Virus record (IMG/VR): IMGVR_UViG_3300012920_000103
Span: 1-37,661 of that record
Origin: a virus
Reading direction: 5' to 3' (one strand)
DNA: 37,661 nt
Shown: piece by piece, positions 2,729 through 34,355 of the stretch
Layout of the letters: each line of letters opens with the position of its first letter
Numbering within the stretch: the first letter of the stretch is position 1
Position numbers and translations under genes: made by a program
Notes under the pieces: model-generated
Databases searched by the model: none
What the model saw: the letters and a program-made list of their open reading frames with translations, nothing else
What the model was told of the DNA's origin: nothing

Positions 2729-3658
2729 ATGAACGATTTAACCATTGAACAAATAAACGAAGCGTTTGAGAATAACGCGGAACTGAAGAACGAATTTTTG
2801 AACAATTACAGAAATTCGGAAGAAATGCGAACTTTGTTGAACAATCACGCTAAAAACTATTGGGAATCAAAAATCGGTGACGAAATCGGAAAAGTTCACG
2901 GCGGTTACGACCAGGACTTCAAGGAAGTTTTAGGCGTTGAGAAACCGCAAGGCGTGAAATCTTACACGTTTTGGAAGGAACAAGTCGCAAAATTAAAGGA
3001 AAACGCAAACCCGGAATTGTTGAGCGAAAAAGACCAACAAATTGCGGAATTGCAAAAAGCGGTTGAACAATCGGCCGGTTCGGAACATTTCAAATCTTTG
3101 TACGAAAAACTTCAAAGTGATTCGGAAACAAGAATCGCGGAATTGAACGAACAATTGAACCAGTTCGAAAACAAATTCAGAACGAACAAAATTGAATCGT
3201 TGATTAATAAGTCAATGAACGGTTTTGAATTTAATTCGGATTTACCCGAAGACGTTAGAACAAGTTTTGTTGACGGAATTGTTTCGAAACTTATTGAAGG
3301 GGCAAAAGTTATGGAAGACGGAACGGTCACTTTTTACGAAAACAACGAACCGATTTTGAACCCGAAAACATTGGCAAAAATGGAAGCGGGCGACATTTTA
3401 AAAACAAAATTGGCTTCAGTACTTTTGAAAAAAGAAAATTCGGCCGGCGGTGGGGTGAATCCTAAAACGGTTGATCCAAACAACCCGAACCGATTGAACA
3501 CACCGGCAACGATAACGACGGCCAAAACCCAAACGCAATTGTTTGAAGCAATTACAAAAGAATTGAGTTTAAAAGGAATGCGCAAAGGTTCGAAGGAATA
3601 CACGGGCGAATTTGACAAATTGTTTGCGGAAAATTCCGAAGGGTTGCCGATAAAATAA
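2729..3658 (+). CDS. Putative capsid scaffolding protein
   Basis: A 309-residue, highly charged, predominantly helical protein directly upstream of the major capsid gene. The N-terminal third is acidic and helical; a coiled coil rich in Glu, Gln and Lys spans roughly residues 90-155 (for example LSEKDQQIAELQKAVEQ). A Gly/Pro/Asn-rich linker around 240-260 leads to a small basic C-terminal helical domain, the arrangement expected of a scaffold whose C-terminus contacts the capsid protein. No protease motif is seen. The identification is by composition and synteny; a minor head protein is the alternative. Confidence 0.65.
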   Translation: MNDLTIEQINEAFENNAELKNEFLNNYRNSEEMRTLLNNHAKNYWESKIGDEIGKVHGGYDQDFKEVLGVEKPQGVKSYTFWKEQVAKLKENANPELLSEKDQQIAELQKAVEQSAGSEHFKSLYEKLQSDSETRIAELNEQLNQFENKFRTNKIESLINKSMNGFEFNSDLPEDVRTSFVDGIVSKLIEGAKVMEDGTVTFYENNEPILNPKTLAKMEAGDILKTKLASVLLKKENSAGGGVNPKTVDPNNPNRLNTPATITTAKTQTQLFEAITKELSLKGMRKGSKEYTGEFDKLFAENSEGLPIK

Positions 3659-3755
3659 TTTTTACTATTTTAGCAAATAACAGTCGTTTATTGTCAAGGG
3701 TAAACAAACACGGCGCAACAATTAATTTTTTTATAAATTTTTAAACACTTTTAAA

Positions 3756-4817
3756 ATGAGTTTAGTAAATACTAGATTACAGGCGATTAGAAGCGCATAC
3801 GCCGGAACCCTTGACAAGTACGAAGATAGATTGTCAAATTATGGGGCATGGGCGAAATTTGTTGAAGACACAACCGATCCGGAATCAATAGTAACGCCGG
3901 ACATTCTTGAAAAAGCGGGATTGAGTGCGGGTAATTCTTTAGCGATTCCAGTTATTGACGGTGAATCCGTAACAATTTCAAATACGAGAACGTGTACGAT
4001 TGCGGACGATGAATCAACGTCGGCACTTGTTACCGTAACTTTTGCAACGTATCAATTTGGATTCACAATGATTCCTGGACAATACGCAAACAATGAAATC
4101 GGATACCAAGCGGACTTTGAAAGAAAAATCTTGAGATACGGGAAGAAATTCGCGGAAACTTTAGATTCGGCCGGAATTACAAAACTTGAAGCGGACAAGT
4201 CGGCGGTTATGAATTCACCGTTTGTTGGTGCGGGTGCGAAATATGGAGCATTAGCGGGTGACGCGGTTCAAGTAACTTCGGCACAAAAACAATTCTTCTT
4301 TAACGACTTGGGTGTTATAATGCAAGGCGATGACTTTGAAGGGCGTTATAATGTGTTAGGTTCTACGACTTTACAAAGTACGGTAAATCAATACTTAAAT
4401 CAAGGGACGCAAAACGGAACAAATTCACTTTTTCAATTTGGACAATTTGATTTTGGATATTCAAACCGCGTTTCTGTTGACACGGCGGGTGGAAAAGAAG
4501 CGACGTTGTATTGTATGCCAAAAGGTTCACTTGCTACAATGAACAGAAACATTCCGGACGCGATAAATGGTGAAGTAATAAACGAAAACAATTTCTTTGA
4601 TATATTCCGTTATCCTATCGTTGACCTTGACATGGCGTTAAGATATTCGAAAGAATGTGACGATAATGAAACTGCGGTTGGTGGATCACAACCACAATTG
4701 AAGGCGTCGGTGAAGGAAACTTTTATATTCTCGACTGATGTTGCATTTATTACTGCTTACAACCGTGACGCGGTAACATTACCGGGTGCGATTCACAAAG
4801 CGGAATTGGACGCATAA
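3756..4817 (+). CDS. Major capsid protein
   Basis: A 353-residue protein starting MSLVNTRLQAIRSAYAG, with typical length and composition for an HK97-fold capsid subunit: a helical N-terminal arm, few cysteines, many Gly/Asn/Thr, and a late beta-rich domain with RYPIVDLDMALRYSKE. It follows the scaffold candidate with a 97-base AT-rich leader and is followed by the strongest terminator in the structural region, both expected for the most highly expressed gene of the phage. No specific Pfam-type motif can be quoted by eye; position and size carry the call. Confidence 0.75.
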   Translation: MSLVNTRLQAIRSAYAGTLDKYEDRLSNYGAWAKFVEDTTDPESIVTPDILEKAGLSAGNSLAIPVIDGESVTISNTRTCTIADDESTSALVTVTFATYQFGFTMIPGQYANNEIGYQADFERKILRYGKKFAETLDSAGITKLEADKSAVMNSPFVGAGAKYGALAGDAVQVTSAQKQFFFNDLGVIMQGDDFEGRYNVLGSTTLQSTVNQYLNQGTQNGTNSLFQFGQFDFGYSNRVSVDTAGGKEATLYCMPKGSLATMNRNIPDAINGEVINENNFFDIFRYPIVDLDMALRYSKECDDNETAVGGSQPQLKASVKETFIFSTDVAFITAYNRDAVTLPGAIHKAELDA

Positions 4818-24035: not shown

Positions 24036-24648
24036 AGATTTAGAGCAACGCACCGAAGAATGGAAACAAATCCGAAAAGGTTCAATCGGTGGAACCCGCG
24101 TCAAAACGGTAATGGCGAAAAATAACCTTCCATTGGTTGACGAATTAATCGCGGAAAAACATTCAGATTTGATTGAAGAAACATTCGTGAATGACGCAAT
24201 GCAACGGGGAATCGATTTGGAACCGTTTGCAATTGCGGAATTTGAAGACCGAATCGAAATGAAGGTTGATTCGTTTGGACTTGTTACAAACGATGATTTT
24301 CCAGGTTGTCACCTATCACCGGACGGATTGATTCTTGATGGTTCCGGCGTACCTTTGTCGGGTGTTGAAGTGAAATGTCCGTCAACAAAAAAACACGTTG
24401 AATATATTCGAACAAACCGCATTCCGGCGGAATACAAATTCCAAGTTTATCACTATTTTACAATTTGCGAAACGATTGAATCAATGTATTTTGTTTCTTA
24501 TGATCCGCGTTTTGAAGTTCGACCGTTTCACTTTATAAAAATAACACGCGAAGAACACGCGGACCAGCTGGAAGAATTTGAAACCAAACTTTACAAATTT
24601 ATTGATAAATTAAGTGAATACGAATCCGCAATAATTGACACTTTTTAA
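24022..24648 (+). CDS. YqaJ / lambda-exonuclease-like recombination nuclease
   Basis: A 208-residue protein with the viral recombinase nuclease signature: RTEEWKQIRKGSIGGT at the N-terminus, RGIDLEPFA (62-70), SPDGL (99-103) with catalytic D101, GVEVKCP (114-120) with E116 and K118, and Q141 in FQVYHYF. These form a PD-(D/E)xK nuclease active site. Such enzymes resect double-stranded ends for annealing-type recombination. Its partner is probably the protein encoded just upstream. Length and motif spacing are normal, with no sign of decay. Confidence 0.9.
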   Translation: MNLIKDLEQRTEEWKQIRKGSIGGTRVKTVMAKNNLPLVDELIAEKHSDLIEETFVNDAMQRGIDLEPFAIAEFEDRIEMKVDSFGLVTNDDFPGCHLSPDGLILDGSGVPLSGVEVKCPSTKKHVEYIRTNRIPAEYKFQVYHYFTICETIESMYFVSYDPRFEVRPFHFIKITREEHADQLEEFETKLYKFIDKLSEYESAIIDTF

Positions 24649-24649
24649 A

Positions 24650-25549
24650 ATGAATCATATTTCATTATTTAGTGGAATAGGCGGTTTTGACTTGGCGTCT
24701 GAATGGATTGGTTGGAACAACATTGCAAGTTGTGAAATCAATCCGTTTGGTCGTAAAGTTTTAAATCACTATTGGCCGGACGCGTTACATCACGACGACG
24801 TTCACACATTCACAAAAAAATTATTAAATGAAAAAATTAAAAACTGGAATTCAAAAGACGTTATTTTGTCCGGCGGATTCCCTTGTCAACCGTACTCACA
24901 AGCCGGAAAACGAAAAGGAAAAGAAGACGAACGTCATCTTTGGCCGGAAATGCTTAGAATCATTCGCGAGATTCGACCGCGTTGGATCGTGGGCGAAAAC
25001 GTTCGCGGGCTTGTTAATTGGAACGGGGGATTGGTATTCGACGAAATCCATTTTGACTTGGAAACTCTCGGGTACGAAGTGCAATCGTTTGTTCTTCCAG
25101 CTTGTTCCAAAAATGCACCGCACCGACGCGACCGAATTTGGATTGTTGCCTACACCAATGACACAAACACGGGATCGGACAATCGAGGAAACGAAGGAAC
25201 GGCAAAAGAAATACGGCGGAAAAAAACGGGCGATGTACTTGGAACACTTTGCGACGTTGGGAATGTTACCGACGCCGAAATGCCAAAAAGCGCGGGGAAA
25301 TTCATCAAGAAATCGAGGAAAAGCAAATTTAACGGACAAAATTGCGGAAATATACAAACCGGTTTCGAAAAGTTCCCAACTCAACCCCCGATTTGTAGCG
25401 GAAATGATGGGATTTCCCGCGAATTGGACGGAATTACCTTTCCAAAATGGCGAAACGAATCAATTAAAGCGTACGGAAACGCCGTCGTCCCGCAAGTAGT
25501 ATTTGAAATTTTTAAAGCAATTCAGAAATACAACGAACTTGAAAAATAA
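24650..25549 (+). CDS. C5 cytosine DNA methyltransferase
   Basis: A 299-residue enzyme with all main C5 motifs: I LFSGIGGFD (6-14), IV GGFPCQPYS (75-83) with catalytic C79, VI ENVRG (116-120), VIII APHRRDRIWIV (156-166) and X GNAVVPQV (276-283). The target-recognition region (about 175-265) is short. ATG 24650 is chosen over an upstream in-frame TTG because it follows AAAA and encodes the conserved beginning. It probably protects phage DNA from host restriction. No cognate endonuclease is nearby. A second long frame is embedded in the +1 phase at 24828-25499. Confidence 0.93.
   Translation: MNHISLFSGIGGFDLASEWIGWNNIASCEINPFGRKVLNHYWPDALHHDDVHTFTKKLLNEKIKNWNSKDVILSGGFPCQPYSQAGKRKGKEDERHLWPEMLRIIREIRPRWIVGENVRGLVNWNGGLVFDEIHFDLETLGYEVQSFVLPACSKNAPHRRDRIWIVAYTNDTNTGSDNRGNEGTAKEIRRKKTGDVLGTLCDVGNVTDAEMPKSAGKFIKKSRKSKFNGQNCGNIQTGFEKFPTQPPICSGNDGISRELDGITFPKWRNESIKAYGNAVVPQVVFEIFKAIQKYNELEK
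24828..25499 (+). CDS. Overprinted protein in the +1 frame of the C5 methyltransferase gene
   Basis: A 223-residue frame lies wholly inside the methyltransferase gene. It carries a motif series that I recognise from separate phage proteins overlapping or following C5 methyltransferases: DWYSTKSILTWK (68-79), RLFFQLVP (87-94), GLLPTP (105-110), GMLPTP (145-150) and LNPRFVAEMMGFPANWTEL (185-203). The other frame keeps intact motifs VI, VIII and X over the same DNA, so this is not a frameshifted remnant. ATG 24828 is the likely start. Function is unknown; a partner in target recognition is one possibility. Part of the conservation could be a shadow of the methyltransferase frame. Confidence 0.6.
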   Translation: MKKLKTGIQKTLFCPADSLVNRTHKPENEKEKKTNVIFGRKCLESFARFDRVGSWAKTFAGLLIGTGDWYSTKSILTWKLSGTKCNRLFFQLVPKMHRTDATEFGLLPTPMTQTRDRTIEETKERQKKYGGKKRAMYLEHFATLGMLPTPKCQKARGNSSRNRGKANLTDKIAEIYKPVSKSSQLNPRFVAEMMGFPANWTELPFQNGETNQLKRTETPSSRK

Positions 25550-28927: not shown

Positions 28928-30146
28928 ACTTCGCGAAATCCAAGAACAAAAATCAACCGAACTGAAAAAAGTTGTTCGAAAACATCGCATTGGAATCCTT
29001 GCGGGTGAAGTTCGAAGCGGAAAAACATTGACCGTTTTAGCAACGGCCGAAAAGCTACTCAAAAAACACGTTCTTTTTTTAACCAAAAAACGCGCAATGT
29101 CTTCGATTTTATCCGACTATAAACTTGCGGGATTTACGTTTAAACTAACTTTAATCAATTACGAATCAATTCACAAAGCCGACACAAAATCGGTTGACCT
29201 GGTTGTTTGTGACGAATCGCACACAATGGGCGCGTTTCCCAAACCGTCCAAACGAACAAAGGCCGTTCGCGATATTGTCGCAACAAATAAACTTGATTTG
29301 ATTCTAGCAAGCGGAACAATTCACCCGGAATCGATTGCGCAAATATTTCATCAACTATTCGTGTCCTATTATACGCCGTTTAAAAGCGTGAATTTTTATC
29401 ATTGGGCAAAAAGATATGTTGATGTCTACAAGATAAAAATCAACGGTTACGACGTGAACCAATACGACCGAACACACGACCAGTTGATTGAAGAAGTTGT
29501 CGCGCCGTTAAAAGTGACAATGACACAAAATGAAGCGGGATTCACTTCGAAAGTTTTTGAGAACTTCGAAACGGTTGAACTTCGTCCAATTACTTATAAA
29601 TTAATAAACCAACTAAAAAAAGATTTAGTAATTGAAGGGAAAACCGAAACAATTCTTGCGGACACGTCGGTAAAATTGCAACAAAAACTTCATCAACTCT
29701 ATTCGGGAACAATAAAATTTGAATCTGGAAACCGAACCGTGATTGATCCGACAAAGGCGGAATTCATTGCAAAGAAATGGAACGGTCAAAAAATCGCGAT
29801 ATTTTACAAATTTGTTGCGGAACTGGACGCAATTAAATCCGTTTATGGCGATAATATCACGACGGATTTAGACGAATTCAACGCAACCGGTAAAAGTTAC
29901 GCGGGGCAAATTGTTTCTTCGCGTGAAGGCGTTAATTTAAGCAAAGCGGACGTTTTGGTTTTTTACAACATCGATTTTTCCGCCGTGTCTTATTTTCAAG
30001 CGCGGGACCGCCTAACAACAAAAGAACGAACCGAAAACAATGTTTTTTGGATATTCTCAAAAGACGGAATCGAATCCGCAATTTATAAGGCCGTGTCGAA
30101 GAAAAAAGACTTTACATTGAAGGTTTTTAAAAATTATTTGAAATAA
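28920..30146 (+). CDS. Superfamily 2 DNA helicase
   Basis: A 408-residue helicase with motif I GEVRSGKT (29-36), motif II DESH (98-101), motif III SGT (131-133), a motif V-like REGVNLSKADVLVFYN (335-350) and a motif VI-like QARDR (360-364). The compact size and the SNF2/DEAD-like order are normal for phage SF2 helicases placed next to the primase-helicase. It probably remodels replication or recombination intermediates. It is the last gene before a new promoter. Confidence 0.88.
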   Translation: MFKLREIQEQKSTELKKVVRKHRIGILAGEVRSGKTLTVLATAEKLLKKHVLFLTKKRAMSSILSDYKLAGFTFKLTLINYESIHKADTKSVDLVVCDESHTMGAFPKPSKRTKAVRDIVATNKLDLILASGTIHPESIAQIFHQLFVSYYTPFKSVNFYHWAKRYVDVYKIKINGYDVNQYDRTHDQLIEEVVAPLKVTMTQNEAGFTSKVFENFETVELRPITYKLINQLKKDLVIEGKTETILADTSVKLQQKLHQLYSGTIKFESGNRTVIDPTKAEFIAKKWNGQKIAIFYKFVAELDAIKSVYGDNITTDLDEFNATGKSYAGQIVSSREGVNLSKADVLVFYNIDFSAVSYFQARDRLTTKERTENNVFWIFSKDGIESAIYKAVSKKKDFTLKVFKNYLK

Positions 30147-32868: not shown

Positions 32869-32882
32869 GTTTTGTTTTGAAA

Positions 32883-32933
32883 TAACGTCTAGTGTAAAAT
32901 GCGTTTTAATGCTTTTTATACCGTGTTAGGCAC
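32883..32933 (+). repeat. attC-like hairpin upstream of the methyltransferase (ends GTTAGGC)
   Basis: TAAC (32883-32886) pairs with GTTA (32925-32928), and an inner stem TAAAA-t-GC/GC-t-TTTTA closes the loop GTTTTAAT (32903-32910). The right end GTTAGGC (32925-32931) fits the integron core site GTTRRRY. The left end fits RYYYAAC only in AAC. This is the expected upstream boundary of an inserted cassette. Confidence 0.5.
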
Positions 32934-32959
32934 AGTTTATCACCGATAAAATTAATAGA

Positions 32960-33916
32960 ATGGAATTAAACACAGTACATAATATAGATTTTTTAAATAA
33001 TGATTTGCCAGATAAATGTGCAAACTTGATAATTGCAGACCCTCCATATTTTGAGGTAAAAGGGGACTTCGATTTTGTTTGGGATAGCTTTGAGGATTAT
33101 TTAAAAGACGTTGAAAAATGGGCGATTGAGTGTAAAAGGATTTTAGCAGATAACGGGACTTTGTTTTGGTATGGTGATGATAAAAAAATAGCTTATGCAC
33201 AAATTTTAATGGATAAACATTTTAACCTAATAAATAACTTAGTTTGGAATAAGGGAATTTTTATGGGGTTAGAAAAAAGTGAGGGGTTAAGAAGTTTTGC
33301 ACCTTGTACTGAAAGAATATTAATGTATGGAAGTTTAGCGCAAGATACAACGGGTCGTGATTTTATAGAAGAAAAATACATAGCACCAAGAAACCCATTT
33401 AGCAGAGAAATATACAAAGGGATGAAAAAGTATAATTTACGAGAAATTGATTTTAGAAAATTAAGACCAAGCAAAAACGGCAATTTGACGGGGTGGTGTA
33501 GTAATATAATATTGGGAAGTAGTAACCCAACGCAAAAAGATTGGGAATTAATACAAACGATTATAAAAAGTAATAAAAAATACGAGGAACTACGCAAGGA
33601 ATACGAACATTTAAGACGACCATTTAACAACGTTTTTAAATTACAAGAAGTTTTAAATTTTAGTAACGAACAAGCAAAAACAGGTGCAAAATACGACCAC
33701 GATACGGTAAAACCCGAAACATTAACAAGAGCGATAATTCTAACTTGTTCACGTGAAAATGATTTAGTAGTTGTTCCCTTTGCAGGAAGTGGTACAGAGT
33801 GTGCTATGAGTGTTAAAGAAAAACGTAATTTTGTAGGTTATGAGATAACAGAGAAACACGCAAAGATGGCACAAGATAGAGCGAATAAAATATTAAAAGA
33901 ACCTACGTTGTTTTAA
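32960..33916 (+). CDS. N6/N4 DNA methyltransferase (beta-type motif order), foreign cassette
   Basis: A 318-residue enzyme with motif IV DPPY at 27-30 and motif I FAGSGT at 274-279; HDTVKP (247-252) precedes motif I. DPPY before FAGSGT is the beta-group order of N6-adenine or N4-cytosine methyltransferases; DPPY favours adenine. Leucine is mostly TTA and arginine mostly AGA, whereas the neighbours use TTG and CGN, so the gene has a different origin. It is flanked by inverted TGTTAGGCACA and TGTGCCTAACA and by hairpins. No cognate endonuclease is present; protection against host restriction is the likely benefit. Confidence 0.93.
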   Translation: MELNTVHNIDFLNNDLPDKCANLIIADPPYFEVKGDFDFVWDSFEDYLKDVEKWAIECKRILADNGTLFWYGDDKKIAYAQILMDKHFNLINNLVWNKGIFMGLEKSEGLRSFAPCTERILMYGSLAQDTTGRDFIEEKYIAPRNPFSREIYKGMKKYNLREIDFRKLRPSKNGNLTGWCSNIILGSSNPTQKDWELIQTIIKSNKKYEELRKEYEHLRRPFNNVFKLQEVLNFSNEQAKTGAKYDHDTVKPETLTRAIILTCSRENDLVVVPFAGSGTECAMSVKEKRNFVGYEITEKHAKMAQDRANKILKEPTLF

Positions 33917-33917
33917 T

Positions 33918-33971
33918 TGTGCCTAACATACAAATAAAACCCGTTTTAATGGGTTTTATATATTGTTAAAA
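33918..33971 (+). repeat. attC-like hairpin downstream of the methyltransferase (GCCTAAC ... GTTAAAA)
   Basis: GCCTAAC (33921-33927) is the exact complement of GTTAGGC at the cassette start and fits RYYYAAC. TAACA (33924-33928) pairs with TGTTA (33964-33968), and AAAACCC (33936-33942) with GGGTTTT (33951-33957) around the loop GTTTTAAT. The right core GTTAAAA fits GTTRRRY at six of seven positions. This is the layout of an integron attC site at the end of a gene cassette. Confidence 0.55.
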
Positions 33972-34005
33972 GCCGTTTTAATGGCTTTATTTTTAATTAT
34001 AACAA
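33963..34005. repeat. Third hairpin of the same family
   Basis: TTGTTA (33963-33968) pairs with TAACAA (34000-34005), and AAAGCC (33969-33974) with GGCTTT (33983-33988) around the same loop GTTTTAAT. It shares TTGTTA with the preceding hairpin and ends at the start codon of the next gene. Confidence 0.55.
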
Positions 34006-34355
34006 TGAGTAAAAAAAAGTATATATTTTTAATTTATGCCGACAATTATATTGTTTGGAATGATGAAAAACAAGATTTTAATCACAACGACACATATAAA
34101 GGAACGTTTTTAGACGCGCATCAATACGCTAGAAATAAATACGGAAAATATTATACTTTGCATAAAAAACAATTAAATAAAATGCCGAAAACATATAAAA
34201 TCGAAATAACCGAAACACTACAAAAACAAATCGAAATCGAAGCAAATTCACCCGTTGACGCGTCGATAAAAGCACAAGAACAATGGAACGAAGACAAAAT
34301 CATTTTGGATTCTGAAGACTTTGTGAACGTAGAAATAAAAGTGATAAAACAATAA
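34005..34355 (+). CDS. DpnD/PcfM-like small protein
   Basis: A 116-residue protein starting MSKKKYIFLIYADNYIVWN at ATG 34005; the frame is open upstream only within the hairpin. The C-terminal part from about residue 60 (MPKTYKIEITETLQKQIEIEA, then EDKIILDSEDFVNVEI) fits the DpnD/PcfM-type domain, a small beta-alpha-beta unit common in phages and plasmids with no firm function. The N-terminal 55 residues are a separate small domain. Codon use returns to the phage pattern, so the foreign segment ends before or at this gene. Confidence 0.7.
   Translation: MSKKKYIFLIYADNYIVWNDEKQDFNHNDTYKGTFLDAHQYARNKYGKYYTLHKKQLNKMPKTYKIEITETLQKQIEIEANSPVDASIKAQEQWNEDKIILDSEDFVNVEIKVIKQ

Follow-up and report, generated by a model that had tools for sequence, protein, structure and literature searches.

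A DNA methyltransferase gene as a probable integron-type mobile cassette at an attC-like hairpin of a phage genome

The window analysed here, meaning the whole 37,661-nt stretch of IMG/VR record IMGVR_UViG_3300012920_000103, is a 37.7-kb virus carrying terminase and YqaJ-type recombinase genes. One of its genes, encoding an N6/N4 DNA methyltransferase (MTase), most likely represents a one-gene integron-type mobile cassette that was site-specifically captured at a resident attC-like hairpin, a reading to which we give a probability of about 80%, the proposed exchange at the 5' box and the pool of anti-restriction genes included. Judged by sequence comparison, the unit has precise ends, is replaced by alternative alleles in relatives, recurs in other phages and belongs to a family whose two ends change together.

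The methyltransferase gene and its repeats

The MTase (318 aa; PF01555, E 7.1e-37) is encoded between GTTAGGC (32925-32931) and GCCTAAC (33921-33927), which lie, as originally predicted, inside an 11-bp perfect inverted repeat (TGTTAGGCACA/TGTGCCTAACA, 32924-32934 and 33918-33928) with no other copy in the window. The predicted association of both cores with hairpins was confirmed by folding, each cassette end adjoining one (Table 1), and a looser structural scan recovered the two window hairpins in the form AAC-spacer-stem-gttttaat-stem-spacer-GTT. Most of both hairpins is spanned by a 34-nt direct repeat (32895-32928 and 33935-33968) of 79% identity and a spacing of 1040. The GC skew of the MTase gene is 0.15-0.39, compared with about 0 in the flanks. 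An Rfam search gave no match. A profile search found no PF00589 tyrosine recombinase in the record, which agrees with the predicted absence of an integrase from the phage and leaves the window without the intI gene of a complete integron. A CALIN is defined by at least two attC sites and the absence of an integrase, and the two attC-like hairpins of the window are candidates for such sites.

The window also encodes a C5 cytosine methyltransferase (24635-25549), outside any recognised cassette. Both ends of the cassette gene are highly similar in DNA sequence to other MTase cassettes, and this similarity is lost mid-gene (33330-33575), which suggests an exchange of the target-recognition region.

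Taken by itself the inverted repeat is a weak argument, and it was rejected as stand-alone evidence, being at chance level by shuffling of the window: 10-bp GTT.../...AAC inverted repeats within 2.6 kb were seen nine times, mostly inside genes, with about three per strand expected from Markov shuffles. It is raised above chance because of the 34-nt direct repeat, the same ends at the same base in an unrelated phage and the different self-matching ends of homologous genes; comparison with other phages is what makes the case. Such repeats being common in an AT-rich window, one could have fallen by chance beside two terminators, an explanation whose probability is negligible and which is refuted by the alternative alleles, by the recurrence of this cut in a different phage and by parallel cassettes numbering in the dozens.

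Table 1. Features of the cassette region, in window coordinates
Feature	Position	Strand	Remarks
Left attC-like site	32880..32931	+	Upstream box AAATAAC (AAC 32884-32886); hairpin GTGTAAAATGC-gttttaat-GCTTTTTATAC; downstream box GTTAGGC 32925-32931; degenerate copy of phage-wide type AACGCATTGTATAAGGTGCGTTTTAATGCACTTTATACGTTGTT
Cassette start, inverted-repeat arm TGTTAGGCACA	32924..32934	+	Same GTTAGGCACA start in L012
N6/N4 DNA methyltransferase, cassette cargo	32960..33916	+	PF01555
Cassette end, inverted-repeat arm TGTGCCTAACA	33918..33928	+	GTTTTAATTGTGCCTAAC end common to 24 viral contigs
Right attC-like site	33921..33971	+	Box GCCTAAC; hairpin ATAAAACCC-gttttaat-GGGTTTTAT; box GTTAAAA
Third hairpin AAAGCC-gttttaat-GGCTTT and T-rich tail	33967..33988	+	Resident terminator-like structure; in L044, diverged in L045
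Inferred mobile unit (hairpin, gene and end)	32886..33926	+	1041 bp; exchange at upstream box AA|C
Canonical alternative unit	32926-33965		1040 bp; exchange at G|TT
Left flanking phage gene	32471..32776	+	Gene end conserved in L040, L041, L044, L045
Right flanking DpnD/PcfM-like gene	34188..34355	+	Directly follows left gene in cassette-free L040, L041
Next phage gene	34362..34595	+	Directly 3' of resident hairpins in L044, L045

Alternative alleles at the insertion site

Close relatives were gathered by a terminase-based scan and compared at the orthologous spot. In one of them (L044) the same flanks enclose another MTase, whose ends (GTTACCTGC/GCAGGTAAC) are its own, and the right hairpin is nearly identical. 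Another (L045) holds a single hairpin and no gene, reading TTTTTTTAAC-hairpin-TTGTTACCAGCCGTTTTAATGGC where the right end of L044 reads TTGTTAAAAGCCGTTTTAATGGC. In L040 and L041 the left gene is followed by the right gene with few bases between them and no cassette, and in L043 the region is absent. The search for relatives devoid of the insert yielded empty (L045), alternative-cassette (L044) and no-site (L040, L041 and L043) alleles; the lack of any empty-site allele, the outcome that would have told against the original prediction, was therefore not what the relatives displayed. An unrelated phage (L012) contains the same cassette at 85-88% identity; the cut is at the same core, and the two copies agree in their cores and differ in their hairpins. 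The empty-site alleles and this shared cassette therefore support mobility, and precise mobility of this kind, with empty or alternative alleles and the same unit elsewhere, is a property of integron cassettes.

A homologue of the window MTase is found elsewhere in the close relative L041 (1706-2646) without hairpins or cassette ends, and the MTase family therefore also moves or persists outside cassettes.

Self-matching ends and the cassette pool

Homologues of the window MTase collected by protein similarity alone fall into two groups, one with no special flanks and the other with cassette ends. In the latter each gene has an end that matches its own start GTTNNNNNNN, and this holds for each of several different cores (GTTAGGCACA, GTTACAAGCA, GTTATGGGCA, GTTAGTGGC and GTTGTGTGC), one pairing being G-T. 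The GTTRRRY/RYYYAAC cores and the anticipated complementarity between cassette start and own end are seen in the window and in these homologues alike. In the absence of a site-specific system, phage modules might be shuffled at recurrent terminator hairpins through homologous or illegitimate recombination, as could be suspected from the terminator-like appearance of the hairpins, their common gttttaat loop and the YqaJ-type recombinase encoded by the phage. This is very improbable, however, in view of unrelated hairpins joined at the same few bases, and homologous exchange leaves unexplained why the ends of any one cassette covary in sequence.

Pattern scans located the cassette-end motif GTTTTAATTGTGCCTAAC in 24 viral contigs and the hairpin core GGTGCGTTTTAATGCAC of one attC-like type in 68, nearly all of which present the site YAAC-GCATT-GTATAAGGTGC-GTTTTAAT-GCACTTTATAC-GTT-GTTR or a close form; cassettes with both hairpins numbered 42. 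A strict structural scan, which missed the weaker sites of the window, found nothing in shuffled sequence, and in several real contigs it detected sites in tandem. The 17-mer scan was biased to one hairpin type, a bias from which the protein-based scans are free. Scanning with a 205-aa MTase-like protein retrieved mostly genes without cassette ends, and in the last gene scan such ends were present at 10 of 79 genes.

At least 25 of the 51 cassette-bearing contigs checked for two terminase families encode a terminase. DNA-modification families account for 29 of 40 cassette proteins (19 N6_N4, 4 Mom, 3 C5, 2 D12 and 1 MT-A70), on the assumption that each protein was counted once. The sample is made of metagenomic contigs, except for two isolated phages with such sites, Polaribacter phage P12002L and Tenacibaculum phage JQ. 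The hosts are therefore probably marine Flavobacteriaceae, to which the host of the window phage would by extension also belong.

Two further arrangements were observed. In one contig (L136, 1170-1248) two full attC-like sites lie 62 bp apart and enclose next to nothing, resembling an empty mini-cassette. In P12002L (L061) two separate cassette runs, near 29240 and 37250, have the same terminal sequence AACAACGGATAAAACAAGTTTTACCAAAC and unrelated last genes.

Polarity of the proposed mobile unit

In canonical integrons the attC site lies 3' of its gene and exchange takes place at G|TT of the R' box, on the bottom strand (PMC2727003, PMC8946536). This layout, with attC at the cassette 3' end, had been predicted for the window and was not supported: several breakpoint sets show that the hairpin located 5' of the gene travels with it and that exchange falls at the upstream AAC rather than at a G|TT 3' of the gene. 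In the near-identical cassettes of L018, L028, L029, L031 and L034 the conserved block begins with the AAC that precedes the left hairpin, and most 3' flanks diverge past the cassette-ending AAC (L028 and L029 share part of the 3' side); L361/L383, L019/L021 and L017/L032 likewise have the same left boundary and different 3' flanks. Among homologous cassette pairs from different contigs, the 5' hairpin alone was common in about 18 and the 3' hairpin alone in one, same-locus artefacts having been removed by hand from raw tallies of 23 and 10 that include overlapping within-locus comparisons. Some of these pairs came from the biased 17-mer scan, and the pairs from protein-based scans alone agree in direction. 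The link with the 5' hairpin has exceptions, in that both hairpins differ in some homologous pairs (window/L012, P12002L/L081 and L072/L079).

Of 32 sites, 29 fold better on the sense strand. AAC-G opens 41 of the 42 5' hairpins, its G corresponding to the one conserved after the AAC of R' when canonical attC sites are read on the recombinogenic strand (PMC2727003). In the short sites the extra unpaired bases are on the 5' arm (spacers of 5 and 3); read canonically, this would point to use of the bottom strand. Canonical attC sites have extrahelical bases on the R''-L'' arm (PMC2727003). Such bases had also been expected here and were not found in the folded stems of the short sites; some longer sites do have extra bases.

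The window shares its right hairpin with L044 despite the different cassettes, so that this hairpin is probably a resident part of the phage. This would set the polarity of the window's own unit, whose hairpin appears to travel with the gene on the side opposite to that of ordinary integron cassettes. An ordinary cassette would instead consist of the gene followed by its attC (the right hairpin), inserted at the G|TT of the left site by an integron integrase, from the host or otherwise. Such a cassette would account for the fit of the cores to GTTRRRY/RYYYAAC, its joined circle site folds well (-17.2 kcal/mol, compared with -13.9 for the reverse unit), and IntI1 recombined an attC of the related phage P12002L at the R' box (PMC9892861). 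It is nevertheless unlikely, given that the right flank as well as the right hairpin is common to the window and L044, that 5' and not 3' hairpins follow the gene in the breakpoint sets, and that integron integrases are rare in Bacteroidia genomes (see below). The predicted one-gene cassette of about 1,040 bp thus stood as regards its integron-type cores, its precise ends and the mobility deduced from allele comparison, and was not supported as regards the canonical 3' position of attC. As the polarity appears not to be the canonical one and extrahelical bases were not confirmed, the unit is not classed as a canonical integron cassette.

Source of the recombinase and proposed mechanism

Searches of 22 related records with the integron integrase model TIGR02249 gave no match at E 0.01, and any PF00589 gene was present in 4 of 46 attC-bearing records. 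Two attC-bearing viral contigs encode small tyrosine recombinases of 267 and 294 aa (L160, 28-831; L161, 1423-2307), closest to XerA/integron models and below their cut-offs. A phage-encoded recombinase as the general answer was rejected on the 4 of 46 records and on the rarity of the L161 type in viral contigs.

The original prediction called on a host integron integrase, a role that the sampled genomes do not bear out: among 395 from Bacteroidia, one contained an integron integrase scoring over the cut-off and none contained the main attC hairpin core. In a further order the integrase count was 1 of 64, in a small, blindly chosen set not specifically of marine Flavobacteriaceae. Common host integrons as the source of the cassettes were rejected on these figures. 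Both integrase counts are in keeping with PMC9024848, which reports that complete integrons are rare in Bacteroidetes. One Bacteroidia genome (L202, G211) has a true integron integrase gene at about 3300-4540 and no attC array in the first 20 kb.

In the mechanism that we favour, the cassette would be captured at the resident attC-like hairpin of the phage by site-specific recombination. A hairpin would form on single-stranded DNA, on the gene-sense strand, and a tyrosine recombinase supplied in trans by the host or a co-infecting element, presumably an integrase or a Xer enzyme, would carry out the exchange at AA|C of the 5' box. The unit carried would comprise hairpin and gene, the right-hand hairpin staying in the phage. 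The cargo would then methylate phage DNA and thereby evade host restriction, and phages of the group may draw on a common pool of mostly DNA-modification cassettes.

A variant differing in the enzyme only assigns the exchange to host XerC/XerD or to a small XerA-like tyrosine recombinase acting on the folded single strand, comparable to the integration of CTX phage through a hairpin. It is possible, if doubtful: the rarity of integron integrases in the sampled hosts, the absence of clear extrahelical bases from the short sites and the XerA/integron-like enzymes of L160 and L161 point towards it, and the scarcity of PF00589 genes among attC-bearing records and of the L161 type among viral contigs points away.

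Beyond the capture mechanism favoured above, it may tentatively be proposed, at somewhat less than even odds, that phages of Bacteroidota-type hosts keep an integron-like cassette system of their own, specialised in DNA modification, with sense-strand folding, exchange 5' of the hairpin and a recombinase distinct from known integron integrases. The cassettes would show that phages maintain, outside bacterial integrons, a common supply of anti-restriction genes that can be exchanged as integron-type cassettes, and they make testable which recombinase moves cassettes in integrase-less viruses and how attC polarity and strand choice reverse.

Comparison with known systems

The phage cassettes resemble those of class 1 integrons and the Vibrio superintegron in being one-gene units with GTTRRRY/RYYYAAC cores, hairpin sites and self-matching ends. 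They differ in having the hairpin 5' of the gene, in the better folding of the sense strand, in short sites that lack clear extrahelical bases, in having no recognised integrase or attI, and in a cargo consisting mostly of DNA-modification genes. With phage orphan DNA methyltransferases (morons) they have in common the gene families and a probable anti-restriction role, and relatives of the window MTase do occur in phages without cassette ends; unlike such morons, the window gene is a discrete mobile unit.

Integron cassettes in phages had been thought rarely reported, a view that needs correction, since such sites are common in IMG/VR and Qi et al. 2023 (PMC9892861) describe 17 CALINs in phages, with five MTases, and an IntI1-active attC (one site) from Polaribacter phage P12002L. 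Our literature search found no paper on phage cassettes later than that study. The CALINs of virulent phages such as P12002L likewise have MTase cassettes between attC-like hairpins, with no phage integrase reported (PMC9892861). The ends of P12002L gp35 and of the window cassette are the same (GTTAGGCAC/GTTTTAATTGTGCCTAAC), and P12002L (L085) is among the 24 contigs with the GTTTTAATTGTGCCTAAC motif. The window cassette is thus probably a member of the kind of phage CALIN described by Qi et al. 2023, whose main text contains no one-site allele series, phage-wide pool or travel of the 5' hairpin (PMC9892861); the new parts are the allele series, the size of the phage pool with its bias towards DNA modification, and the 5'-hairpin polarity.
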